From: Paramecium tetraurelia
Lineage: Eukaryota > Ciliophora > Oligohymenophorea > Peniculida > Parameciidae
Reading direction: 5' to 3'
DNA: 64,000 nucleotides
Assembly (NCBI RefSeq): GCF_000165425.1
Contig: NW_001799277.1
Coordinates: 62,001 to 126,000 of the forward strand
Under the pieces are notes generated by a model that was not told the origin of the DNA, did no database searches, and saw only the letters and a list, made by a program, of their open reading frames with translations. The translations under genes were made by a program, and so were the position numbers. This document shows positions 1-26,929 of this stretch, one piece after another (positions within the stretch are counted from its first letter, which is position 1; each line of letters opens with the position of its first letter).

Positions 1-314
1 AAGCATGCAACTTAGGTGGCTCCTGTCAATTGACTACAGAAGGTGAAGGTCTTGCATGAACTTCCACCTTAGGGGTCTGTGGTCCACATACATTTCAAGT
101 TTGCAGCACATGCAGAAGCAACAGTTATCAAATTACATTCTTAAGTGGAACAGGAACTTCCATCCCATATGCATTACGGTCCCATTTTAGTACAATCACT
201 CTCGTATGACAGTTAATCACATGTGCATGAATTTGTTGTATAGAATTATCCGACACTTTATCCACTGCTTCCCAAACATCCCACAAAGAATAAGGCGAAG
301 ACGATTTTGATCAT
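1..314 (-). CDS. Cysteine-rich surface-antigen-like protein, 3' part off window
   Basis: The reading starts at an ATG at 314 and stays open to the window edge (104 codons). It begins with a clear signal peptide (MIKIVFALFFVGCLG), then a Cys-rich stretch with the spacing C-x-C, C...C-x-W, CNL...CAANLKCMW. The C-x-W pattern is typical of the periodic Cys repeats of Paramecium surface antigens (immobilisation antigens) and their smaller relatives, which are secreted and often GPI-anchored. Four in-frame TAA codons read as Gln. It lies 189 bp downstream of the HEATR6-like gene on the same strand. The 3' end, and so the size and anchor type, is not visible. It could also be another secreted Cys-rich ciliate protein; the family is inferred from the motif only. 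Confidence 0.7.
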
Positions 315-503
315 TCGATTTAAATAAAATAATTTATGTTCTGCATTTAATCAGAGCTTCCCTTTAAACCCATAAAACTAGATAAGATACCTCAATTAAG
401 AATCTTTGGAATCATCTAATCTCGACTATCCCCATAAATCAATGAAACTGTTTGATTGTTGTCCATAATACTAAAAATGAATATAGATATATATATTTTT
501 ATA

Positions 504-2996
504 TCAATCGATTGAATATATTTTAATTAAACTGGAGTCTGTACTCAATTCTTGCAAGGCTTCTAATGCAGAAAAACTGATTAATTTGTCAGAAGGAGAT
601 TCATCTATCACATTATACAAAGTAGTTGCAATAAATGACATTTGCTAAAAGAATCCCTAGAATTCCTCATCCTTTGGAACACTCAAATATTGATTAATGA
701 TATATGAATGTTCCAATTACTACTTGAACGTCTTTTCATCATCTTTAAAATTTTATTATAATTGCAGCACTTCCTACTTACTCAAATCACTATTCGCTAT
801 TATTATTTGGGAATCCTTGGGTTTCCTATCCAACACTGCCGCATAGATTTCTGTTGCCACTCTCTCCAACACATTCTCCTCATGCAAAGTGTCATCCAAT
901 GCATGTATCAATTCCTCCAAACTCAATCTCTTGAAAAACCCCTCCAAAACAAATAGAACACTCTCTCTCATCCTTGTCTAATACTTCTTCTCTATGAAAT
1001 TGTCGTGATTCTTGAATTTCACCAGTATCCAAATTAAGGATCTCAAGTAATCCTTTGCATGTTCATTCTTCAGATATCTCACCAACTCCACACAATGCAT
1101 TTAAGCCTTTAAATTATCTAAGGATTATTCTATTCAAATACCTCCTTTAGTCAACACATCCAAAATACTCTATCTAATCTTTGCATTCTCCAATAACTCT
1201 TAGCAATTCCCCTACACTGCATTATGCAAACTTGTAGAAGCATTCCAACTAATCTTAGGATTCTTAGATGCCAAAGCATTTGCATAACAATTTATCAAAT
1301 CTTAATTTATTGTTGCCTACTGACATTTCATCAAATAATATCCCAATCCACGTAAACCATTTGTTGAAATCTTCTCCTTAGTATTCATTGCGAAATTCAA
1401 AAACAACTGATAAAACTCTTGATTCAAATTCACCAAACTGCTCAAATTAGCTGCTGCCCAACTACTTTTCTCCAAAACATGGACATTATTCCCCTGCAAT
1501 TTGTTAAACATCTAAGATAACTCTTGAACTGCCATTGGATTCTGCAAAACACTATTTGAACTGCATAAAGTCCCTATTGCCTTATAAAATGTGATTTTTA
1601 AACTCGACATGTTAAATGGAGTATCACTGAACAGTTATCCATGAATGTAACTAATTTGTTTGATCAGCTTCTCAATCACTTCTTAACTCTGCTTCTGCCA
1701 AAACTAATCCTGAAGATTACCTATGATGTTGAATCCTGCAGGAACCAATTCAACCGCATTTGACTATAAACATTCCAAAGCCACATCAATTAAGATCTCT
1801 TGATATCCTTGTTCAGCTACACAACTAATCTCCTCGAAGATCCTGTAATACTAAATGTTTGGCTGTTTGATTCTTTGCAATTCTTAACAATTTACTAATT
1901 CACAGAATTCCTTATGGAAATGCGACTAACACTTTTGCAATAACTAATAGCATTCTTAAATGAATAACTCATTATTATTATTGTTATTTTCATTCCTCTC
2001 CTTAATTCCTTACAGACATTGCTTAATCAAATACTTTACATCTATTGTCTTTATGCCCTCATAAACCAAAACATTCAAAATCTACATTGCAGATGTTTTC
2101 ACAGTTGCGTCATTGATCAACTACAATGAAATCTAATATAGGGGAATCCCACCCTCCTAATCCTACAATTTAGTAAGGATTCTGCATTCCTGCATCAGAT
2201 AAACCTCTAATTTGCATAATTGAATATTGAATTGACTATCATTCTATTTCCATCCAGAAAGTAAAGCAAGTGCTGTTTCATGAATCTATTTTACACCCTA
2301 GAATAACACATATGCCTTGGGCTAAAATCCATGTTGATGTTTAACTATCTCAATTCCTTGAATCCACTTAGAGACATTCAAGGTATCCAACAGTACTATT
2401 ATTAAATGAACCAAATTAATCTTTGTATTCTTTCTAGGTTCATGTTGCAGTAGTTGTAACAATTTCTACAAGAATAGTTACCAATTGCTTTAAAAATACA
2501 GTGGGAATTCCTTGATTAGAGTCTTTAACACAAGTATGCTGGTTGATCTTATTTTCGAATTAGCCTTTTGGGCTGCATCACTCTACCCTTCCGAATCACT
2601 AGAGAGGTCAGTTACGACATGTTCGGGTTGAAGATTGCCAAACTGAGGAATGCCTGTAAAGCAACATCGGAAGACTAATCTGATGAATTGATCTGGTGTA
2701 TCGATTTTGAATTCTTAAAGCAATGCTCCGATGGCTTTTAACAAAGTAATATTGATTGGTTAGGTTAGACACCTTTGGATTGCCACTTGTAAGGTTTACG
2801 AATTGAATTCCTTGGGTTGGAGCTGAATGAGTTTAGCCACCAATCTGATGGCTTAGTCAACAGTTTTGAGAATCTCAATCAAGACGGGTACCATATCGTG
2901 GGTCACTCTATTCTCCAGATGTTTGAGAGTATGCATCAATTACTCTTTATTTTCGAGTTGTTTCCTTAGTGATTATGCTGTGATATGTTAATGCAT
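504..2996 (-). CDS. HEAT-repeat protein, HEATR6-like
   Basis: A single 830-codon frame runs from ATG at 2996 to TGA at 504 without introns. It consists of helical HEAT/ARM-type repeats: Leu-rich amphipathic pairs throughout, with signature stretches such as SWAAANLSSLV, LRGLGYYL and ISWNASTSLHNAV. These resemble the 'W-N-A..A..N' and 'N-A-V-R-A-L-G' repeat motifs of the HEATR6 family. HEATR6 of animals is about 1180 aa, so this copy is shorter. Function is unknown; HEAT proteins act as scaffolds. It is divergent from the gene starting at 3136, with 139 bp between the two ATGs, which probably holds both promoters. HEATR6 is my best guess from repeat wording; another HEAT/importin-like protein is possible. 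Confidence 0.6.
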
Positions 2997-3135
2997 TTGA
3001 TTATTTCTTTTATAATGTAATTATTTGAACAAGAAATGAAATTAGACCTTAATTTTAGTTCGCTTTTTATGAAGTATTCGAGATTGATCCCATACATAAG
3101 CTTGATCAAATTGTCCATCGAATTCATTATTAAAA

Positions 3136-4236
3136 ATGGTACTCTCAAATGACGAGACATTTGAACTAACTTTTGTCGATCCTTTTAGGTAATGCAAAGG
3201 AAAACCTTTGGAATACAAGCACATCATGACACCTGAAGGGATCTGTGTCATAGGTGAGGTGGATCAACATTTCATACTCAACGTAGAGTGCAAGGACAAG
3301 GGAGTCTATGGCATCAGGGTAATAGTGGATGGCTTCACTCTCCCAGGGAAGAAGACTTTCAAGAGCAAGTGCAAAGTGCAAGGCTTCACCAATTCCGATG
3401 GCAATATTAACTGCTTCAAATTCTAAAGGCCAAAATCAGACCCAGAATCAACCAATGTGTTCAAGAGGAATGTGTACAGACCACCTTGGGATATGAGTTA
3501 GAATGACTATCGTGACTATCCTGGAGGTGCAGGTGAAATAATAGTCAAGATCTACGAAACCAAACAGGAGGAGAACACACAAGGAGGTGGTGGTGGAGGA
3601 GGACCAAGAGGAGGAGGTGCAAAGAAGTCACAGGATCCCATGTTTGTTGAAGTGACTAAGAATGATAGCAAATCAGCTGAGGATCAATGTTTAGGCATTT
3701 CTTAAGGCAATGTCATTGAGTTGCCCCCTAGACAGGCATTTGATGATTCCAGACCACCAAAACCATTCAAAGATGTCATTGTCTATGAGCACATTGTTTA
3801 ATCCTTCAGAATCATTTATTTTGATGCTGCAAGTCTGGTTGAGAAGGGATTTGTTAAATTGAATTGTCATAATCACATTGCTTATTTGACGGAGGAATTC
3901 TTCCAAGGAAACGAGGCTGCTTTGATCCAGGTCTTGCAGACTCTTATTGAGAGTGGATAGAAGGATAAGGAAGAGTCGGATATTCAGCAGACGGCGAATG
4001 TGTTGGTTGAAAGATTGGATTACTATTTCTCTGGAGAACTATTGAATATATTTTTGAATAAGGAGAATCAAGAGTAATTGCAATTGGATCCTGGTTCAAG
4101 GGCCTAGTATTTGGAAAGTGAACTCATCAAATTAATGGAGTCTTGGCCTGATTTCTTTTTGAATTTGGGAATGGGAGCCTTTGGAATAAAAAACAAATAT
4201 GATTAGAAACTATACATTGAGAAGATTCAAGAGAAA
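3136..4236 (+). CDS. Unknown protein, C-terminus cut by telomeric repeats
   Basis: ATG at 3136 opens a 367-codon frame with no intron and with several Gln encoded by TAA/TAG. The N-terminal half looks like a beta-rich domain (MVLSNDETFELTFVDPF, then VIGEVDQHFILNVECKDK). A Gly-rich linker follows (GGGGGGGPRGGG near residue 155) and then an acidic helical half ending ...YIEKIQEKG. I do not recognise the family. At 4237 the sequence becomes pure telomeric repeat. The frame runs on through it as alternating Gly/Phe and then Trp/Gly/Val codons and stops only at 4393, clearly not native protein. The true C-terminus is therefore missing or has been replaced. It is divergent from the HEATR6-like gene. 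Confidence 0.7.
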
Positions 4237-4283
4237 GGGTTTGGGTTTGGGTTTGGGGTTTGGGTTTGGGGTTGGGGTTGGGT
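4237..4283 (+). repeat. Interstitial telomeric repeat tract, G-rich strand
   Basis: The tract reads (GGGTTT)3-GGGGTTT-GGGTTT-(GGGGTT)2-GGGT, about 47 bp of perfect G3T3/G4T2 mixture, the composition of Paramecium telomeres. The G-rich strand runs left to right, so the tract is oriented as the end of a chromosome whose body lies to the left. It interrupts one gene and directly precedes a 5'-truncated gene. A lone TTTGGG (4295-4300) follows after 11 bases of other sequence. It may be a de novo telomere addition site joined to more DNA, a collapsed alternative chromosome end in the assembly, or a genuine internal tract. Confidence 0.95.
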
Positions 4284-4288
4284 AATGA

Positions 4289-5251
4289 TATAGGTTTGGG
4301 ATTACGAATCTAATAACATCCTCTATCTACGCATTAGATTTCATACAATTATCTACTATTCAATGTTCATGTGCATAAATGATAACTAAAGATGATTGCT
4401 TAAGATTCAATTGCAAAATAGCACCCTACACATTATCCTCATAGAAAATCAATCTTGATAAAGCTTCTCTAAAAAATAAGACTGCACTATCATTGGCAGT
4501 CCCAAAATTTAAGTGTTCAGCATTATTTTGTACCGACATCAAGACCCAAGAACTTTGTGATAACACAGGCGAATGTGTCTGGAATAATAATGGCGCATGT
4601 GAACTATTTTCTGGATGTGGATCCTATTAAGTTGATAAAAAAGAAGATTGCTTGTTAAAGAGCACATAAACTAAGTTCTGCACATACGATGAGGAATAGC
4701 AGAGTAATGGGAAATACAATTGCATCAATGATCTATCAAAATCAGGGGGTAGTTTTATGACTTGCTTCACATTAAATGATGAGAGTCTGTGCAATCAATA
4801 CGAATATGCTGTATGCACTTGGAGATCTTTTTAGCAATGCTAGGATGAATCTGATGAAGTTAATTTGTGTTAGTAATATCAATATTGTATTGGAGAGGAG
4901 AGTAAGGATTGTGCAGATCTCTCAGGATTTGAAGATAAGTGTGATAAAAGAGCAAATTATTGCAAATGGGTTAAGGATAATAGTACGTGCATGGAGAAGG
5001 AATGTTCTGATTATACATCAGAAGCTGATTGCAAGAGTATTTTAACAGATGATTTAAAACGGGCAAAGCCTTGTACATGGGAAACAGAATAGTGTATATA
5101 GGGGTTCAATTTAACTAAATTAAATAAGTACAATTGTCTGATTGATTCCTTGAATACTTCGATGTGGAATGAGGTTGAATAGAGATGCCAGAGTTGTAAA
5201 TTTGAAAAACTATTGAATTTTATTATTTTTGTAATGTTATTATTATAATGA
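4289..5251 (+). CDS. Cysteine-rich surface-antigen-like protein, 5' truncated
   Basis: Open in the ciliate code from just after a TGA at 4286 to TGA at 5249 (320 codons). No start codon or signal peptide can be found before the telomeric tract; the first Met in frame is at 4378. The product is strongly Cys-periodic: CSCAQ, CLRFNC, CTDI..LCDNTGECVW, CEL..GCGS, CTWRS, YCKW, CTW...QC. This is the C-x-W/C pattern of Paramecium surface antigens. It ends in a hydrophobic tail (LLNFIIFVMLLLQ) after CQSCKFEK, as expected for a GPI signal or a membrane anchor. Surface antigen genes are commonly subtelomeric in Paramecium, which fits its position. Many Gln are TAG/TAA. It is likely a broken gene. Confidence 0.75.
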
Positions 5252-5293
5252 ATTAATCATATGATTTATTATAATTAGCAAAATAAAGAATCC

Positions 5294-5517
5294 ATGAAAA
5301 AAAAGTGCAGAAAACTTAAGACATATTTTGCACCCAAATTAAGTAGAAAAAACAAATCATAACAGATGAAGAAGTTGAGATTGATCCAATTTCATACGAA
5401 GACTTTGATGATCTCAAATAATTGCGTAGGATGATCAGACAAACTGACCACTCAATTAATTAATACGGAAAGGAAGTTAAATAGCTTTAAGATAACATTA
5501 AAAGGTTAACTAAATGA
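5294..5517 (+). CDS. Small coiled-coil protein (66 aa), one 23-nt intron
   Basis: ATG at 5294, intron 5343-5365 (GTAG...ACAG, 23 nt), TGA at 5515. The basic start (MKKKCRKLKTY) is followed by an acidic patch (NEEVEIDPISYEDFDDL) and a short amphipathic helix (QLRRMIRQTDHSINQYG). Removing the intron joins the only two coding-like frames, so I trust the model. The length is a multiple of three after splicing. An in-frame ATG upstream could add 12 residues. No family is recognised. After the stop another frame stays open (see 5594-5839), so the gene could continue through a further unseen intron. Confidence 0.55.
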
Positions 5518-5593
5518 TAGCACTTATCAAATTCAATATATTTATTTAAATTATTATCTATCTCGTTTAGATAATTTACAATAATTCTATGTG

Positions 5594-5839
5594 ATGAGAG
5601 TTGATTTCAGCATAATCATATCAACTCTTCATTCATAATTCAATAAATTAGAATTTAGCCATCAAATCCTGCACAATACAGCTTCTATATAACACATATT
5701 TCTGAGTTAAATTGTTAAAATTAATTATAAAATTTCTTCAGAAACTGATTTTTAGATTGAAATTAAAATTATAGTCCCTTTTGCATTAAATAAATGGATA
5801 AATGAAGTGCTACAAAATAGATTTGCATTTTTTGAGTGA
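5594..5839 (+). CDS. Possible small hydrophobic ORF (81 aa)
   Basis: ATG at 5594 to TGA at 5837, 81 codons, Ile/Leu/Phe-rich with three TAA/TAG codons read as Gln. The same frame is open upstream to about 5512 and overlaps the tail of the preceding small gene, so it may instead be the 3' exon of that gene joined by an intron I cannot place; the only GT...AG candidate is 16 nt (5505-5520), shorter than any other intron here. No homology recognised. The rest of the 5518-6034 stretch shows no convincing gene on either strand. Confidence 0.25.
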
Positions 5840-6034
5840 TTATAAGCAGTTCTATTTTAGTAGCAAAGCAAATCTGTATAAATTGGATTAGTAAGACAAC
5901 GGTTTTTTCTCTGTAATGTGATTATAAAATTAATTAAAAGGGACAGACAACATAATTTCTGTTTCATTGTTTGGTGAAATGGATATGTTATTAATATATA
6001 TACAGTTTCAAGAAGATTTAAAAATATTAATTCA

Positions 6035-6421
6035 ATGGGATCCATTTGTGTAGCGAGACACCAAAATTTGGCTTCTATCACTTAGAGTGACGTAGAAGTT
6101 GCTGAAGAATAAGCCATTAATGATCAGGTCAGCACTATTTCCTGCAATTTTATTTCAACTTTGGAACTTCAGTTTAAAAGCACAGCTTCATAAAATCAGA
6201 TTGAACATCAACAAACCCAAAGAATTTCTTTGGAGTTATCGTAGATTGGTCAATAGATTGAGAGGAAAGGAATTCTTAAGAACACTAATCCTCATTATGA
6301 AGAAGAATTAAGAATACTTTCATAGACAATTAAAATTAATCAAGAAGAAATGCATTATGAGAAACTAGTGAACTACTTAAGGGCTCGTAAAATTTAAGGG
6401 TCATACAAAATAAATTTATGA
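6035..6421 (+). CDS. Putative N-myristoylated helical protein (128 aa)
   Basis: ATG at 6035 to TGA at 6419, no intron, 128 aa. The start MGSICVARHQ carries Gly2, Ser3 and Cys5, a classic N-myristoylation plus palmitoylation signal, which supports this start and predicts membrane attachment. The rest is acidic/Gln-rich and helical (EVAEEQAINDQ, ILSQTIKINQEEMHYEKL) with many TAA/TAG Gln codons. Its stop faces the stop of the E2 gene (convergent, 47 bp apart). No family recognised. Confidence 0.6.
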
Positions 6422-6468
6422 ATTAATTCTTACTATAATATATATATTTATATATTGCATTCATTTAA

Positions 6469-6946
<478 letters not shown>

Positions 6947-6975
6947 TTAATTTATATATTTTATATATATATAAA

Positions 6976-7801
6976 TCACATCAATCTATGTCTAATAAGA
7001 ATGTTTTCTATATTCTCAGTACTACACATTAAATTAATACTTTGTTTGTAATATTGGCAAACAATTGCCTCACTTACATCTGGTGTCTCCTTGTAGAAAA
7101 GGACAAAACATCCCTAAATCAACTGCTCGAATTGTTTCTTCAACTCTTCATGAGTAAAATCGACCATTCTAATATTTCGTTTTTGCAAGATCTCCATAAA
7201 TTACTCCTTATTGCATTCAACAACTCGTTTAGTCAGATATTTATAAATGTATGGCAGTCCTTCTTGAGTGATTTTAAAGGGAGTTACCTAGCCACCAAAG
7301 CTTTCCTTGCCCCTCTCAAATAGTTTCTAGCCAATGTTAATAAGTTTAAGGTTCTCTAGTTTAATACAAATATTATTTACAATTTTTGGGATCAAACAAT
7401 ATATTTTTTACATCCTCACTAACATATCTAAATTTCTTGTTGACTTACATGATGATGTCAAGCGATTATCCAGTACCTAGGACTTATCCTTAAGGAAATC
7501 CACTGATACCATAATAATCACAAATGACTTTCCAATCATAGTCATTGATCGGAGTATAAGGTTCGAGTAATGCAGCTTTATCTTTCTCATTTTATTATTT
7601 GCCATCCTATTCATTGCTTTACTTTAAGATGTCCTTAAGATGATCTTAATTGACATCAATATCTTAAATAAATTATTCTTATTAAACATCTTCTGATTAG
7701 ATAACTTCTTATTAAGCTGATTATTAAACTTATTCAGGCTATTATTATTAATTAGGTTATTCTGGTTTATCAGTAATTTATTCAACTTCAATTTATTATT
7801 A

Positions 7802-7900
<99 letters not shown>

Positions 7901-9360
7901 TGGTTACTCTTAAGATATTATTGATTCTTAATAAATTGGCTTTTTCCAAATTACTGCTTACTTTTTCTTAAATAATGCCAAATAGAAACCACCAGTGTCT
8001 TAATCATGTGGTAGTACTCTCAATGTCTTCTCTATACCAATTTTATTCATAAACTCTTCAGTATCTGGCCATAAAGAAGGCTTTAATGTCTTTAAAGCAT
8101 TAATCATTTATCCTTCCTATTTTCTAGAAAACTTAGAAAACAACTTTTTAATATTCAATTTTTGATTAACATTATTAACTTCATAGACTAAATCATCTTC
8201 AGTGACACTTTCAAGGAAAGTCTTTTCATCTTAGTCTGGGTTTGATTCTCTTTGAAGATACTTTTAGGTTAGAAAGTCATCAGTAACGATAACCTTCCAA
8301 TCCTTGACTCCTTTTCTAGTTTTGAATCCTTAGAGTGTATGTAAATCAACTAATTCAAAAGCATCAAAGCCAGCCCTTCTAAAGACTTCAGCCACTACAG
8401 CCTCATCCTCAATTGGATTGAGTGAACATGTGCTATACATAACATATCCTCCAATTTTGCATAATTGAAGTGATCTCATCAAAATACTCAATTGCAAAGG
8501 ATGAATGACATTGCCATCTCTTGCTGACCATTTGACCCATCTTGTAGGTAACTTACGAGCAGCTCCATCCCCAGTGCATGGAACATCACATAACACTTTA
8601 TCAAATTGTAATCTCTATCCATTGATATATAAGGTAGGATAGAATTAAGCTGCATAATTGGTGACCATAACCTATGCGGTTGGCATACGAGATAGTTGAT
8701 GCGATAACATATATGCTCTTTTGGCATCTACATCATTTGCAACAATCAATCCTTTAGTTACTACCTCCAACAATTGACAAGTTTTTGATCCTGGAGCTGC
8801 ACACATATCCAGAACATAATCAGTTGGTTGAGGATCCAATAACAACGGAGGAAGCATTGACACAAGTTCTTATCTAGTCAAAAGACCAGTCGAATTGCAT
8901 TTTTATATGAATTGGTGTAGTTTAGTGAGGGCAGCTGATTTTCTAAGACTTTTCTTAGGCACCTTAGATTCCCATACCAAATGATTTGGATACCATTTAA
9001 TTTCTCTAATTGGCTCTACTATTTCTTCTTCATTGACCATGTCTTTTATCAAGGATCCATCTTGTAATCTTTCAATCAAACTCTCGTATTTGTATTAGGA
9101 TGGATTAATTCTGAAAGTGACAGGCAATGGAAGAGATAAAGATTACCAGAAGATCTGAAACTCTTCAGAAGTTATTTCTGGTAATTGGATCTAAAATATG
9201 GGTAATGATGATATCATACTTCATAGAAACGACGAAAGATGGGATTCTCAAATTAGACGACACAAATTTATTGATTGTCTTGATCCCAGTGATTTGTCTT
9301 AACTTTCTTCTGAGGAGCATTTTCATATTTGCTTTAATTCTTGTTTCTATGTTTTCCCAT
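6976..9360 (-). CDS. tRNA (cytosine-5-)-methyltransferase, NSUN2/TRM4 family
   Basis: A SAM-dependent m5C RNA methyltransferase. ATG at 9360; introns 9191-9219 (29 nt) and 7356-7380 (25 nt); TGA at 6976; 776 aa. In order: an N-terminal region with NPIFRRFYE and [10 protein letters not shown]; the SAM-binding motif [15 protein letters not shown] and VANDVDAKR; motif [11 protein letters not shown]; motif [17 protein letters not shown] with the two catalytic cysteines; and the NSUN2-specific C-terminal domain ([15 protein letters not shown]). Between catalytic and C-terminal domains sits a Gln-rich linker with 35 consecutive Gln. Both introns are needed to join conserved segments. Family assignment is strong; the exact tRNA target is not predicted. 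Confidence 0.93.
7793..7897 (-). repeat. (TAA)n microsatellite coding polyglutamine
   Basis: On the coding strand 34 TAA and one CAA make 35 consecutive codons inside the NSUN2-like gene. In the standard code this would be 34 stops; in the ciliate code it is polyglutamine. The tract separates the methyltransferase core from the C-terminal domain and is flanked by more Q/E-rich sequence. Confidence 0.95.
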
Positions 9361-16796: not shown

Positions 16797-19700
16797 ATGA
16801 ATTTACTTGAAAAGATCACTTATATCATAACAAGATTACTTTTCTTTTAGATTAGATGTTTTGCAATTACTCTAAATGATTCATTACCAATTTAAAAGTA
16901 TAATCTCCTTGAAAATGAGAAGATTTTCTCTCACTATCAGATTGGTGCATTCCCTCTTGATAATCAAACTTAACAAGATTATACAGATATTGAGTTTCCA
17001 TTAATAGATTACAAACAAACAATAAAAACTGGAAGCCTTATGGTGAAAAATGTGCAACCTATTAATATTAATGATTAAGAGTTAGCTATTATGACTATTA
17101 TTGATGATGAAATGATCTGCTTATTACAATTAAATACATATTCAGTTAATGATGAATTAAGATATTTAAATTGTTCGATTAGATTTAAATTTGAGTCAAA
17201 CCATTGTTTCTAGGTCTATTAAATTTCTAATGATTAATTATTAATAATATGTTAAAAGGATGCTAACACAATATATCTTTATTTATAGAATTTTGATAAT
17301 TAAGTAATCAATTAGTATGAACTCAGCATTATATAGAATTGCAAAGTTAACTCAGCGTTTTAAGACTCATTCATAATTATTTATTAATCAGATTGTATAG
17401 ATTCTAGGGATTATACTGATTGCTAGTAAACAGAATTAGTTATCCTAAAGATTGAGGAAGGTTAAATTAAGTCCTATTATAAAAAATAATTAGCATAAAT
17501 ATCAGCAACTAAAAATATAGATATCGAAAAAACCGGAAAATTAAGAGAAATTTAAATTTGCTTTACCAAAAATCTAGTTTTTGTATTTACCAAAGGAGTT
17601 TACTATTGTAACGTCTTCAATTAGGATTAATGTTATTAAATTAAATCTATCTATTAATATTCAACAATTGTCAAAGTATATAATTCTTGTTCTAAAAGTA
17701 ATGTTTTAGAATATACAGATAAAGGAGAATGTATTTTAATTAAATAATTTAGGGTATTTTAAAAGATTTCTAATTGATTTAAATAACTTAAATTATAAAG
17801 ATTATGTAAATTCAGGGATAATCTAAAATAAGTTGCTAGTCTTTTCAAAGGATGACTTATATATCATCGCTAGTTCTAGGATCTACAATAAAAGGAAAAT
17901 TTAAGTTCAAACTACTATCCCAATTGCTAATTTATCTTATTTCGCATTATTAGATGTAGAAGGGAAATTGCAAATTTATTAAATGAATTATTAAAGGTAT
18001 TACTATACTTATTCTCGCTAATTATAATTGATAGCTTTCCTGCCAAATAGCTTCTATGAAGTGAACACTAATTTGATAATTATTTAGATGGAAAAGTATG
18101 ACTCATAAAACCCTCCATTTTTAATTGGAGATAAGGAAATAGAGATTTATCATAGAAATTTCGAAACTAATTTAAGTATAAACAGAAATTAAATTTAAAG
18201 ATCTATTCCTTTTTAGATATTGAAAATTGAAAGAAATGGTAGGTTTGTGAATTATTAATAGTAAACAAGAGGATTTTAATGTAAATATAACAATAAAGTA
18301 ACTTACATTAATTTGTGGTTTTTTGAAAAAATGGATCTTCTTCAAATCTTAATTCTTGAATTAAAATCGACAATATAAATAAATGTCTGCTCTTAAGGAA
18401 GGCTAATGAATCATTTTGCAATACCTTTGCATTAAAATTTTATAGGCATAGTTGTTAATGAAGAGTATCTATAACTATTGATAGTTTATTAAAATGAACT
18501 TAATCTGTATTAGTTAATTGATATGGAACTAGTTAGTAGGTAAATCAGATTAGAAGAGAAGATTATTAAAATTTTGAATAATAAAAAATCAATCTCATTA
18601 ATTTTGGATGATTGTAAGATTATTTTATTATCATCCGACTCTATAAACTCATATATAGAATATTTTTAATATAATGGTGATAATTGTACTGAAATTTAAT
18701 TTTTAGCCGATAAATAACTTACAATAACTCATGACTAAATTATAAAGTACAACAGCGAAAAGATCATTTAAATAATAAATTTACCGTATAAGGTATTTCA
18801 AGTGAGTTTTTGTGATAATTTATAACCGTCATTCTTTTTAATATTTTATGAGCTTTAACAAATGGTTAATATATCCTTATTCTTTGATTACTAAGAAAAA
18901 GTAGAAAAACTTTACGATTTGCCATTGCATAATTTTTAAATAAAAATACCACTCAACTATTAATATCAAAATTCTTATTTGATGATATTAGCATATAATA
19001 ATGAATTCGATGACGTTTTATTGATTTATAATTGTAGGGAAACTTCAATTGAATCTTTAGTGTGGATTACATAATTAGATCAAAACGAGAAGTAATTCTT
19101 TGGATTTATCAATTCAAATCTAGACTTTTTTTACATAAAAAATAAGTCTATTGTTATTCAAAATATAAATCACATCCAAATCATTCTTGAAGAGTATGAA
19201 AACAATTTTTAAAGCTTTATTCCCTTCTTAACCTTTAATTTTATTTTAGAATCATAATTGTAACACATAAAAAAATAAGCAAATATTGAAGTTAAGTAAT
19301 ATTTTATTAATAGCAATTAATCCTTGGCTCTTTTAAAAGAGGATTTCATTGAAATTGATTCAAAAGGATACATAAACCTTATCAATATCTATGGAATAAT
19401 CAATTATATTGCGATTCTTGAGAATTCAGAATAAGGAATAATACATCCCTTAACTCTCTCTAATCCAAATGAAATATTAGAATGTCTATCCTACAGTAAT
19501 AATTTGTGTTTACAATCTGATTCTGTTTTTATGTTGAGATACTAAGAATAAATCTTAAAGCTTTAACTTGATAAGGCTATAATGAATGATTGCTTAATCT
19601 TTTTTGATAAACAGTTAGATATATATAGTATAATTGAACTGTAGGATTTTTAAGGCTGGATATCAATTAGCATAACCAAACTTAAATTTGAAATATTGCA

Positions 19701-20679
19701 AACTAAAGGGTAAGTATCAATAAATAAAACTCTTGAACAAACTTCAATTATTTTAATGGCATAAGTTGTTCAAATCTTAAATGTTGAAGGTCTAATTATT
19801 CTTATTTAAGATTACATTGATGGCTATCTAGTTATGGAAGGATAATATCATTCTTAAAAAATAGAATTTAGGCTAAGTTTTCCTTATTTTACATGTGATA
19901 CATTCTTCATCACAAATGGTACATACTTCTTTATGGCTGGAAATAATTAATATCTCCAATTAAAAGTATTTTCCTTTAAAAATATCGATTAAAATTTAAC
20001 ATGTTAAACTCTTTTTAGTTAAGAATTAGAGATGTCATAGATTATGACAGAGCTACATTTTTCTGAATTGCAATTAGAATTAAGCATTATAAAAATTTTA
20101 GCAGTTGATTTTGATAGTCATTCACTTAAATTTTAAGCAATACTATTCCTTACAGATTTTTTTGCCTTTTCTTTTTCACTTCATTATAATATTGATTAAT
20201 AAATTGTAATGGAAATGTAAATTTAATCACTCTTCAGATATTCTAATTAATCGAAATTTAATAATATGATATATCTTGATTAGAATTTCATAATTATAAA
20301 GGTGTCAAATACATCAAGTTCTTCATTATTGATTTACGATTTAAATTTAACCTCATAAAAGAAAGAACTTGATGCAATCTAATTAATTCCGGATTAAACT
20401 TATACTTTAATTGAAAAGTTCAATGAGACACATCACGTAATTCTTTAACATGATAAAGATATTCTATAAGTTCAATTCATTTAGTTGTCAAAATATTAAA
20501 TTAAGTGTTTTAATCAATGTAATTTTGCAATGACATTACAATTATAAAATGATTGTTCAAGTATCATAGTTAAAGCTAAATAATAAAATGATATGGCTTT
20601 AGTAAATTATAATTATATTATTATTTTATTGATTTGTTTTCTATGCATTATTAAAACAACTTTACATAGAAAACATTGA
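16797..20679 (+). CDS. Giant secreted/type I membrane protein A (1286 aa)
   Basis: ATG 16797, a single 22-nt intron at 17731-17752, TGA 20677; the rest of 3.9 kb is one frame with well over a hundred TAA/TAG Gln codons. N-terminal signal peptide (MNLLEKITYIITRLLFF), an ectodomain of about 1230 residues of short hydrophobic strands separated by polar turns, very rich in N, I, Q, L and Y, and one C-terminal membrane helix (YIIILLICFLCII) with a short basic tail (HRKH). The strand pattern, with recurring short motifs like LLIICQKD and LLVFSKDD, suggests stacked beta-propeller-like repeats. I do not recognise a named family. It is tail-to-tail with a similar gene at 20865. Confidence 0.85.
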
Positions 20680-20864: not shown

Positions 20865-23800
20865 TCATTTGATTTAATGACGGAATCTTCTATTTTTAAA
20901 GGTTTTCAAGAATAGAATTAAGAGTATCAAATTGACTAAATTAATAAGAGAAATTCGCATGTTTGAAAAATTTATAATATCATTTCTATCGAAACTAGGA
21001 TAAAACACTAATGTTAAAGTAGATACTGAATTATTTAATTTAATAGTTTCAATTGTTTATTTAAATGGATTTTAGGGTTGAAATTAATATCCTTAAAATT
21101 GTACAAAACTCAGTTGTTAAGTAGTATTTACACTTTTTATTTAAACAAAATGTGATTCATTAAAATATTCTATAGTTGTATTTTGTTCTACATATTGATA
21201 GAGACTATCAAGAACCTTTATAGAAGATAAATTATAAAAATATATGACAGTTTCTTCATCCATAAGCAAGGATAAGATTAAGGTGTTTTAATTTGCTAAG
21301 CAATACTATAATTACCCTTTATTATGTTAATACCGAATAAAATTGATTATATGGCTATGCATTAAACTTTGTTAAAAATCTATAATTAAATTGATTCTAA
21401 AGCAATTTTATGCTATGAAACATATAATGATATTTGTTTCAAATATCATATAATTTAAAGTGTGATTTAGAATTAATAATGAATTTACATGTAAAAAACC
21501 CAAAGAAAAGTACTCCGTAATCATTTAGGATATGTCAATTTCTAAAGTCTTGTCATTACTGTAATTTTAAGTTAACAATACAACATGAATGAGATGATTA
21601 ATTTTATTATCATAGCAAAATATTACATAATGATTTTTTACATATATAACTTATACAATCTAAAAGTCAATACGATCTTTATATGAGAATTGTTTGAGAT
21701 CATTTTCTTAAAATAGTAGAATTTAATATTGTTTTTTATTCATGATTTTGATTATGGCAATATTTTCTATGAAAATTATACTTTAAATTCTATCTGCATA
21801 AAAATCAATTTAAAGACTTTATTAATATTATGATTTCTTGTTCAGTTAAATTTGATTTACCTCATATTTTTCCAAAAACATTCCAGAAGCCAGACAAAAA
21901 ATTTCTTACATGCTGGATAAGTCTTTTATAAAAACTAAGTCTTTGCATGACTGGGGGAGTTTTATCATGATTTGATTCACAGAATTGAATAATATTACAT
22001 CTGTATCTTTATAACAAGCCTGATTAGAATAGAATCCACACTCAAGAAATGGAGTTATAACAATAGGAACTAATTTTTGAAAGTCATTCTCTCTAAGCAA
22101 ATATACATTATCAATTTAATTAAATACATTTTCAAAATTTATTTTGTTTATTTATTTCTGCTTGTGATAGTGTTATAGAAATGGAATTTTATTATCTTTT
22201 ATTTTTAAGGTGTAATTGAAATGAGATATTACAATATCGAATTAAACTATTTTAGACAAATTAAATATATCGGTTTTAGCTTCTAAATAATTTAATTCAT
22301 GTTTAAAGTCAGTATCAAAATCTAAATATTGATCAGTAAATTTTAGAAAAACTTATTTTAAATAAGTAACCATTAGAGATGAGTTATAAATAGAAACAAT
22401 TTGATGAACATTTAAAAAAGTGAAGTAATATTAATTTTGGTCGATATTAATTACTTTTATCAATATACTAATTAGTTAATTATTGAGATTATAGACAAGA
22501 AGAACTTCCTGTTAATTACTAGGATTTTTGGCAGCTATGGCTAATTAATCCCAAAATATTTCATATCTTAGAGGATATATAATTGTGAAATCATACAAAG
22601 GGAGGTTAAAAAAAAAGTATAAATCTTAAAACTATATGCTATACAGTTTTAGAACAATCTTTTTTTCAATTACTTCGAAAATGACTAGCCTTTCCTAGTT
22701 TACAAAATAGATATAGTCAATGATCTAATCAAAATTGAATATAACTTTATTTGAAAAATAAGGTAAAATTTCAATTTCTTTATTAGATATTCTGATTTCC
22801 TGTTGATCAAATGGTTTAAATTTACAACCAAATTAAAGTGAATTGTTTATTTCTTCATATTTTAAAATATCTATTTGAATAAAGATCTCAAGGCAATCCT
22901 ATAAATAAATACTAACAACTTGATTATTTTATATTATTTTATTGATCTCTTTAGTTATCCTTAGAGACCACTTCAATTCTATGATTTTATCATAATGAAA
23001 TGCTTTTATGATGTTTTTAGATATTATTATGAAGTTTTGTTATTCGATACAAAACCTGATTTACGAGTTTTCATAATAATCACTTGGTTTTATTTGATAA
23101 CTTATTGCATTTTTACTATTAATTATAGATATTGCTTTTTTGTTAACTACAAAAATTGTATTATCATTAATACTATGTTCTATTAAAAAAACTTCCTATC
23201 CCCAAACCATATCTTTATATTAATTTATAAAAAAATGGTTCTTTGCTAATACTAAACTACTGTTTTGCTATTGTTTGAGTGTAATTGAAAAAGGTAATCC
23301 TTATTGCATTTAGAAAATATTAAAAAGATAATATCCATCCTGATTGACGTATATGGTTTCAAATTTTACTGTCTAAATTAAAAAATAAGGAGCTGATTAC
23401 TTTATTATTTTTACAATAATCGGCTCTTATGAGACCTTGAATTATTGAACATAAAAAGCCAATATATTTTACTATTTTGTTTAAGGTATGTATCTAAGCA
23501 TATTGTTAATTCTTAGGAATTCTAAATCTCTTTATTATTTAAAACTTATTATAAAAGGTAATTATCCTAAAAATAGAATTTAGGTGTTGTTTTTCACTTC
23601 ATATTTTAGTGAGATTATATCATTGTTATAAATGTATAAGGACTCATTACAATAAATGATAATATTTTCATTAATAAAATTAATTGAGAGCACTTTTTCG
23701 CCTTTTGGATTAAAGTATACTATATTTTCAGATATAAATATTTCAAATTAACTACTTTAATCAATAATTACAAAATAATCCCTCTTTAAGTAAAAAAAAG

Positions 23801-24611
23801 AACCAATATACTTATAATTTCCAACCAAATTGTGTAAAATCAATTCAATCTTTCCAGAATTTAAGTAATAATCAAAGATCTTCTACTGACAAAATATTCT
23901 TAATTAATCACTATTTTTTATTTGGATTGAGTTGATTTCACCAATTATATCGTTATCAAAATTACTCAAATTAAAGTAGTGTTTTTTCATTGTTAATTTT
24001 ACTTTTTAAATTTCTACAATATAACAAAAAAATAATAAATTTGTAGTTTCGATTAAGATTAATTTATTATCAACTTCCTAAGAATAGAAAATAGTATTGA
24101 ATTATGATGTGATCTCTAAAATATCTAATAGTTAGTTATGTAAGTCTATTAGTTTGAAAATTTAAATATTTTGATTCCTACATTCTAATATAAACAAATT
24201 CTGTACAATATTATATAAGTTTTAACAATTTTTTTGGCTAAAATTAAAAAAGTCATTCTAAAATTTAATTAATTAATTATTGGATAAATAATTCATAATT
24301 TTGTAATTACATTCTATAGTAGATGCTTTAACTAAGCAAATATAAATCTCATTCTATTCATAATTTATAAAAGTCGTAACTTTTGAAACACCTTCAGTTA
24401 AAGTATAATGATGGTCACGTTCAATCAAGTTATTTGATATTTTAGAAATAACATTCGAAAACCTTGGATTCGTAATTGAATTATTTTCTGAAATCTGCGA
24501 TTCTATTATTAATACTCTCCTTGATAAGTAATAATTTTCATTCTCAGTCATTATAATCTCTCTTATTGCTTTTGTTAAAATAAAGCAAGAGAAAATAATA
24601 ATATTCCACAT
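20865..24611 (-). CDS. Giant secreted/type I membrane protein B (1248 aa)
   Basis: One uninterrupted frame from ATG 24611 to TGA 20865, checked codon by codon on the minus strand from 24354 down: no TGA in frame, no intron needed. Same architecture as protein A: signal peptide (MWNIIIFSCFILTKAI), a long ectodomain of strand-like segments (IIYCNESLYIYNND, LFILECRNQNIQIFKL), and a C-terminal membrane segment followed by a basic tail (FKNRRFRHQIK). Local wording resembles protein A (a stretch with ICLV/ICLL, then N..L..C.RNQN.Q.F), so I infer distant paralogy. Convergent, with 185 bp between stops. Function unknown; a sensory or adhesion receptor is one possibility. Confidence 0.85.
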
Positions 24612-24771
24612 TATTAAATAACTTAAAAATATAAATTAATTATAATACTAATATAAATAAACCTTCAAATTTCATACTTCAATTATCAATTATAATGGTT
24701 ATAATAATTATCATATAATATTTATTATAATTAGTTTATATTATTGGAATTATTCTACATGAATTATTTAA

Positions 24772-26929
24772 TCAGAATTTTTAATCTAATTCATTCAATA
24801 AATTTAGACATGTTTTCAAACTAATTAATGTTTATTTTGTCTCTTTTCTGGATTTCTAAATAAATTGATTTTCTTGCAGTAATTCATCAACAGAATCCGA
24901 TTTGTATAATACCCCAATCAATTCTCTCTCGCATAGATTTCTTGATTGATTTACAAGAAATGTAATTATAGTTTTTGGAATAGAATCACAAATATTCTTC
25001 TTTACTAAATTGAAATATGAGACGATAAGGTCTTTAATCATATCCATCTCTGTTTATTCTCTTTTACTTGGTCTATCATTTAATTTAATAACATTTGGAA
25101 CACAAGGCAATTATCTTTTTGGATCGTTAACGTAATACTATTAATTAACATAGGCAATTTTATTTATCACTGATTATTATTGTAATATTTAACTTTCATC
25201 TATCTATTCCAGCTTTTTTGGTTTTAAAGTATTCTATTTCCTTTTATTGTTTAAAATATCGAGTTTACTATCGTACAATTCTGTTTGCTTATTATTTTTA
25301 AATGGCCAAAAATTTAAAAATTTACCAGATTCACTTTCACTCTAAACAGGTGATTTTTCTCTTATAATTTATTATGGTTATTATCTTTATTCCTCTCTAT
25401 TAACTAAATCCATTCCAGATACAAAATCTGGGTGACTAGTATTAATATATCCAATCTCAATTTCTAATAGATTTTAAATTATTTCATCTGTTTGAATTAA
25501 ACATTTATTTAAGAGATTTTCAATAACTTCTTAAATTCTATTGGATAATACATCAAACCTTTCAATTTCAGGTATTGAAATTTGATTGATTACTCTTCTT
25601 AATTCTTCAAAAATTATATGAGAACATTCAATGGAAGGCATGCGTAATCTTTAGATTTATTGTCTAACCAATAACTCAAATGCTCCTTAAGGAACAAATA
25701 AACTAGGTCTAATTCCATTAGCATTTTTGATAGCTGTTCTTATTTCATCATCGCTTAACACATCAAATGGATTCATTTTTTAAATTGTTCTTCTGAAGGT
25801 TTCGTTAAATACATAAATTATTCTTGATCCACCAATCAACTCTTTACTGGTGATATCTAAGCATCTTCCTTCCAACATATCCTTATAAGAGTTGGAAAAC
25901 TTAGAAATTAAGGTTAATACTAATAAATTCTTTGTTTCTTTAGATTCAAGATTGTCGTAATCACCATATTGTTTTAATTCATATTCCTTCATCTAAGCCA
26001 AACTTATTATTGTCTCCCTTATTACAGGTAGTGCTCTCTTAATATGTTAGATAAAATTCATATTTAAGGTCTTTACCAAATAGCCAATACCCATCTTCTC
26101 TGAGTATTTCTTATATATTTTGTGACTCTCAAAAAATTCTTTCTCGTCCTTCAATTAATTTTAAATTGTTTTATTTTTTTGTATGTCCTTCTACCCTCTC
26201 ATGATTACACCAACATAACCTAATTGCAAAGGATAAGTCTGATTGAGCAAATCATTCAATATATCAGATCCTTCATCCATTAAATCTAATTGAGTGATTA
26301 CACCTATTGTTCTTAAACCATTAGGATCTACACTTCTAGCCAATTTTAACCCATCTGATGTTGCCAAATCATCTGAAGCCTTTGAAACTGCTAAAATCAA
26401 ACTATTCTAGTTTTTAATGAAGGGCAAAACAATATCCAAAACCTTTTATTCTATGTCTTAGGGTTAATCTCCAACAGGATTCTTTGTAATTCCTGGTAAA
26501 TCAATCAATTGTAAATTTAAGATATCCTTTGAGAAATATTTCACCTTTATGGCAACTGGGGATATCCCTTTGTTCTTTCCAGCCACTTTGTCCGTCTCCT
26601 ATTCAATTAATTTTCTGATCTCATCTGACTCAAAAATTTTCTCCCCTCTCTTGTCCATAAACTCAAACCAACTCTATTCAGCATCAATAACTTAATGCAA
26701 TTATATCTCTATCGGTCTCCTTGTTACAATTCCTTTTCCTCTTGGTAGAAATTCTCTCCCCACAATACTTTCAAGAAGAGATGATTTTCCGACAGATTAG
26801 GATCCTATCACTACAATTGATGGCAAATTCAACTCATTACTCAAACCAGCTGAACTTAATATATCCTTGTTGATATCGATATATGAATAGTACATGTAAA
26901 TCATTTATAAAGGGGATCAATTTCTCCAT
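24772..26929 (-). CDS. Dynamin-family GTPase
   Basis: A membrane-scission GTPase. ATG 26929, intron 26866-26893 (28 nt, AAG end), TGA 24772, 709 aa. The intron joins the dynamin N-terminus [15 protein letters not shown] to the GTPase core. G1 GSQSVGKSS, switch GIVTRRP, G3 DLPG, G4 TQLD (usual TKLD), VIMRGQ, a middle/stalk domain and a C-terminal GTPase effector domain ([26 protein letters not shown]). Length fits dynamin-related proteins without PH and proline-rich domains, as in other ciliate dynamins. Likely roles are endocytosis or organelle division; the sequence alone does not choose. Confidence 0.93.

Follow-up and report, generated by a model that had tools for sequence, protein, structure and literature searches.

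The telomeric tract and the genes on its two sides

The window, that is the whole 64-kb stretch of Paramecium tetraurelia DNA that was analysed, corresponds to positions 62001-126000 of contig C165 (495,371 bp), in an assembly of 69.07 Mb and 231 contigs. In this genome TAA and TAG stand for glutamine, the telomeres are mixed G3T3/G4T2 and there are duplicated collinear blocks, features that agree with a species of the Paramecium aurelia type. At 4237-4282 of the window, on the plus strand, there is an uninterrupted telomeric G-strand tract of 46 bp, which is built of G3T3 and G4T2 repeats. A first-pass annotation of this DNA had reported a perfect run of 47 bp; the tract is present, but it is one base shorter, since the 47th base (4283) is a T that is common to the tract pattern and to the native sequence. 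The repeat GGGKTTGGGKTT, when up to one mismatch was allowed, matched the window seven times, and all seven matches fall inside the tract, as compared with a mean of 0.30 and a maximum of 2 matches in 100 shuffles; by these counts a chance repeat is ruled out as the origin of the tract. The examination of both strands showed that it is the sole telomeric run in the window, and a search of the 64 kb for C-strand runs of at least two units gave none. The earlier statement that the G-strand caps the left piece only is upheld: the window showed no C4A2 run that would cap the right piece. The left edge of the tract reads AAA/GGG, without TA, and the mixed G3T3/G4T2 repeats abut unique sequence directly, as they do at the alternative telomere-addition sites of Paramecium.

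On the left side of the tract there is a gene of unknown family (3136-4236, plus strand), which as assembled comprises 367 codons and lacks its native tail and stop. Its frame is open from the ATG at 3136 straight into the tract, over exactly 367 codons, which confirms the first-pass description of a gene of this length that enters the tract without a native stop; when the tract is read as coding, 52 foreign codons are added. The gene matched no Pfam family at E <= 1, and the search of solved structures with its protein gave four matches, the best of which (E 0.061) was taken as chance. An older paralogue on contig C77 (365 amino acids, 62% identical) has its stop at nearly the same point.

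On the right side a Cys-rich frame (4307-5248, plus strand) of 314 codons, with 30 Cys, leads to a hydrophobic C-terminus and a TGA at 5249. It was initially thought to begin without ATG or signal peptide, and indeed it has no in-frame ATG; there is nevertheless an ATG at 4285, which misses the frame by one base. Besides the window and the related locus on contig C185 (see below), the right gene matched seven loci, and the three paralogues that were examined (on C169, C47, and C72) have a hydrophobic start after Met, signal-like when judged by eye, as well as a hydrophobic end. The 314-amino-acid frame matched 0 Pfam families at E <= 1, the surface-antigen model included. The label 'surface-antigen-like', given to it at first, suits its architecture (Cys-rich, hydrophobic ends) and not any Pfam family at that threshold. 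Both frames on the window contig are undamaged except at the tract, and the view of 'two broken genes' holds for the assembled sequence and is limited to it.

The duplicate locus and the mosaic edge of the tract

The DNA search of window 1-8000 against the whole genome gave a match at C185:367037-369586 (minus strand, 89% identity), which covers window 2995-5552 and thus crosses the tract. In the detailed alignment C185 corresponds to window 2995-4237 on the left flank (1119/1245 positions, 90%) and to window 4283-5519 on the right flank (1135/1238 positions, 92%), and between the matching flanks it contains 42 bp of ordinary sequence, without the tract. Judged against C185, the 46 bp of the tract replace a native segment of near-equal length (42 bp). 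When collinearity was compared, for C165:42001-82000 with C185:351001-381000 only, all 10 alignment blocks (10/10) agreed in order and orientation along 30.6 kb that include the site, and they reach from 14.1 kb left of window base 1 to window 16494. Judged from these alignments, the C185 locus is the whole-genome-duplication twin of the tract locus. Since the twin passes through the site without interruption and in collinear order, the left and right sides belong together, and the collinearity implies that they were already adjacent when the genome was duplicated. The bridge sequence of C185, searched against the assembly, matched C185 and the tract locus only, and no native version of the tract locus, free of telomeric bases, was found by this search elsewhere in the assembly.

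The twin also contains what is missing from the two genes of the window. In C185 the left gene continues for 15 more codons (VINNPMKNEIQIKQQ) and then ends with TGA, and the right gene starts at the same ATG, which there opens the frame of the Cys-rich protein; behind it comes a hydrophobic stretch, MIQFIIINLITSSIYALD, that is signal-peptide-like when judged by eye. In C185 the two genes, which lie on the same strand, share four bases (ATGA, window 4285-4288) where the left stop codon and the right start codon overlap, an arrangement that is unusually tight for two separate eukaryotic genes. The substitutions that separate the window from C185 at the first, second and third codon positions number 16/6/88 in the left gene (367 positions each) and 17/6/45 in the right gene (314 positions each). 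In both genes they are concentrated on third positions, a codon-position bias that suggests constrained genes. The C185 copy itself is shifted in frame by extra single bases, of which two lie in the left gene and one in the right. These extra bases may be sequencing errors or early decay; sequencing error is possible because, as passages of the published report state, 10,339 insertions of 1-2 nt were removed in the correction of the 13x Sanger assembly of P. tetraurelia (PMC3464196).

Beyond the tract native and telomeric bases alternate before the sequence becomes native for good. The first 10 bases past the tract, TAATGATATA (4283-4292, plus strand), are native and in C185 hold the TGA that stops the left gene together with the ATG that starts the right one; they are followed by telomeric GGTTTGGG, native ATTA, then CG, and native sequence from there on. 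The segment that consists of GGTTTGGG plus ATTACG (4293-4306, plus strand), termed here the mosaic edge, differs from C185 by six substitutions and one extra base: GGTTTGGG stands in place of ATTTATT, which is one base shorter, and CG in place of TT. All six substitutions fall within 13 aligned columns and in five cases (5/6) change the base to G, and right after them come 80 bases (4307-4386) that are identical to C185. The binomial probability of 6 substitutions in 17 columns at 8% divergence is 0.0015, where both the 17 columns and the 8% are the analyst's choice, and by this comparison of sequences the mosaic edge is unlikely to represent ordinary divergence. The alternation of native and telomeric bases past the tract stays in register with C185. 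Taken together with the near-equal length of the segment that was lost, this is the pattern expected from a consensus of two kinds of reads.

A proposed alternative telomere addition and the competing explanations

The arrangement is best explained, and with good probability, by an alternative telomere-addition site, the capped reads of which were blended with spanning reads in the assembly consensus. According to this model, in some macronuclear copies the chromosome would be cut near 4236 and the cut end capped by telomerase with G3T3/G4T2, leaving a left chromosome that is shorter but still measures at least 66 kb, and in other macronuclear copies the chromosome would continue through the two adjacent genes. 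During the assembly, reads of capped molecules would be placed among the spanning reads by means of their unique left part, and the consensus would then take telomeric bases for 46 columns, again for about 8, and finally native ones. We infer in this way that capped molecules exist, that they arise through a developmental break and that their reads were mixed with the others. The column-wise mixing predicts lengths of tract and native segment as close as those found (46 vs. 42 bp). Yet, a toy consensus model with independent per-base quality, which counts against the simplest form of blending, produced a finely interleaved mosaic at the scale of single bases and not the observed blocks, hence block-wise switching of the consensus is assumed. 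Two further results count against the model: the search of the window gave no C-strand cap for the right piece, and the census of the assembly (see below) gave a single other gap-free internal tract, on C1, for which no twin beyond 613 bp was found. The assembly is presumably of Sanger origin. The entry of an alternative form into the consensus has a precedent, since passages of the report on the P. tetraurelia somatic reference mention that at least one germline form, an internal eliminated sequence (IES), was assembled into it (PMC3464196).

Two suggestions of the first-pass annotation are in line with this model. The first, that 4236 is a telomere-addition site which caps the left piece, is the best-supported reading in the light of the twin and of the mosaic edge; the second, that the right part represents a longer version of the same chromosome, gains support from C185, in which both sides follow one another without a break and in collinear order. 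Alternative sites of telomere addition on the macronuclear chromosomes of Paramecium were reportedly studied by Le Mouel 2003, Caron 1992, and Amar 1994. The window site is like them in its mixed G3T3/G4T2 repeats on unique DNA, in a position that is not conserved and, probably, in the existence of a longer form of the chromosome, and it is unlike them in being known as a tract inside a contig rather than as capped molecules, and in lying within coding sequence. The proposed event is of a known kind and is not new. In the parts of the published reports drawn on here, it is described that alternative telomere-addition regions lie 2-13 kb apart on some Paramecium chromosomes, each of them being heterogeneous (PMC7599177), that the telomeres are mixed G3T3/G4T2 and the positions of addition heterogeneous (PMC3408717), that germline repeats, when eliminated imprecisely, leave ends which are either capped or rejoined (PMC7599177, PMC3408717), and that in P. 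bursaria about 30% of telomere-addition sites are located in coding regions (PMC7702705). No literature on exactly this locus was found by title, and absence from print is not claimed.

If the proposed model is true, a further alternative end would be mapped on a somatic chromosome of Paramecium, at single-base resolution and inside coding sequence, and the assembled C-terminus of the left gene as well as the assembled start of the right gene would be untrustworthy. Breakage at the start of a Cys-rich gene also brings to mind the P. tetraurelia A surface-antigen gene, the 5' end of which is said to be a place of breakage in the work of Amar and Dubrana 2004. In both cases, if the model holds for the window, a telomere-addition site lies at the start of a gene for a Cys-rich protein that begins with a signal-peptide-like sequence; however, the right gene of the window encodes a small protein of another, Pfam-unmatched family. 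By this analogy, breakage at 4236 might act as a somatic switch, in which capping, by a cut between the end of the left gene and the start codon of the Cys-rich surface-type gene, would deprive the cells or macronuclear copies concerned of the start of the latter, and the C185 locus would be the unswitched copy, although such a role is very doubtful.

The rival that survives best takes the assembled sequence at face value, as it is gap-free: telomerase would have healed a break that occurred recently at 4236, the healed end would then have been rejoined to the rest of the chromosome with a loss of 42 bp, and the sequenced strain would carry the resulting tract either in its germline or in a large part of its macronuclear copies. 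Healing followed by joining is chemically conceivable, imprecise joining is known in Paramecium from passages of two reports (PMC7599177, PMC3408717), and the search with the C185 bridge, which matched only C185 and the tract locus, gave no native version elsewhere. On the other hand, this requires that the lost native segment and the tract agree in length by coincidence, and that 10 native bases be followed by another telomeric patch. The tract would also deprive the right gene of its start and lengthen the left gene by 52 foreign codons, and yet both genes are otherwise without disabling change on the window contig. A real internal tract of this origin is thus unlikely, and the germline healed break, considered in the first-pass annotation, is disfavoured on the same grounds of mosaic edge, near-equal replacement and genes that are otherwise open and constrained. 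The interstitial telomeric sequences of other eukaryotes are stable chromosomal loci; the window tract shares with them the telomeric repeats within contiguous sequence, whereas it is missing from the duplicate locus and has a mosaic edge.

A chimeric assembly join was another of the options named at first. Joins of a telomeric end to another piece do occur in this assembly, as the head-to-head tracts around 150 N on C28 illustrate, but C185 has both sides of the tract in the same order (90 and 92% identity) and is collinear over 30.6 kb, and the join at the tract is gap-free. The chimeric long-range join is ruled out by this collinearity, and the proposal was rejected; an assembly chimera or a cloning artefact, which would join a telomeric end to an unrelated piece, is on the whole highly improbable. 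In this way a comparison of whole-genome-duplication twins present in one assembly can, even without reads, tell a chimeric join from a local blend. The weakest rival, somatic retention of a germline element (an IES or a repeat that resembles telomere), is scarcely credible, for although a retained IES is noted in passages on the Paramecium reference (PMC3464196), an IES sits between TA dinucleotides and leaves complete flanks, and here 42 bp of native DNA are replaced and the left edge, AAA/GGG, has no TA, by which such an element is ruled out.

Telomeric tracts of the assembly and other features of the window

In a census of the assembly at least 43 telomeric tracts were counted in 40 contigs among the matches listed. 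The first pattern gave 156 places, part of which were used, and four further patterns gave 2, 80, 7, and 38 places; the census is blind to tracts of G4T2 only or with many errors. Among the 43 listed tracts, 27 are close to a contig end (about 300 bp or less) and nine are close to an N run (50 bp or less; N runs in this assembly are not necessarily gaps). Two are gap-free and internal (the window tract and C1:1212-1261), and five, on C67, C68, C168, C171, and C172, are unclassed. A short non-telomeric tail follows the terminal tract in several cases (C64, C205), and both such tails and the vicinity of N runs are as expected of low-stringency telomeric reads. The tracts beside N runs imply that elsewhere the assembly joined scaffolds across chromosome ends, which is as expected if longer and shorter chromosome versions coexist. 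At about 4524-4977 of the segment C28:247501-257500, two head-to-head telomeric tracts surround 150 N and join two chromosome ends.

The second gap-free internal tract among those listed, C1:1212-1261, is in C-strand orientation, with 1.2 kb beyond it. The genome search with the first 5000 bp of C1 gave non-telomeric matches that were partial and confined to bases 1-613, and no twin beyond 613 bp was found in it; the relatives of bases 1-613 are located on C167, C170, C164, and C223, and from these matches the segment possibly belongs to a subtelomeric family. Contig C165, from which the window was taken, has a telomere of its own at the right end, from 495220 on, and in its first 2 kb no telomeric run was found by the pattern used.

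Other features of the window include a TTA microsatellite at 7793-7898, perfect or nearly so, with about 35 copies. Two AT-rich long open frames are found at 17116-20679 (plus strand) and 20865-24671 (minus strand), of 1187 and 1268 amino acids from stop to stop, respectively, for which Pfam gave no match at E <= 0.01. Next to them, at 24772-26916 (minus strand), a complete-looking dynamin with N, middle and GED domains is encoded in a single open frame.
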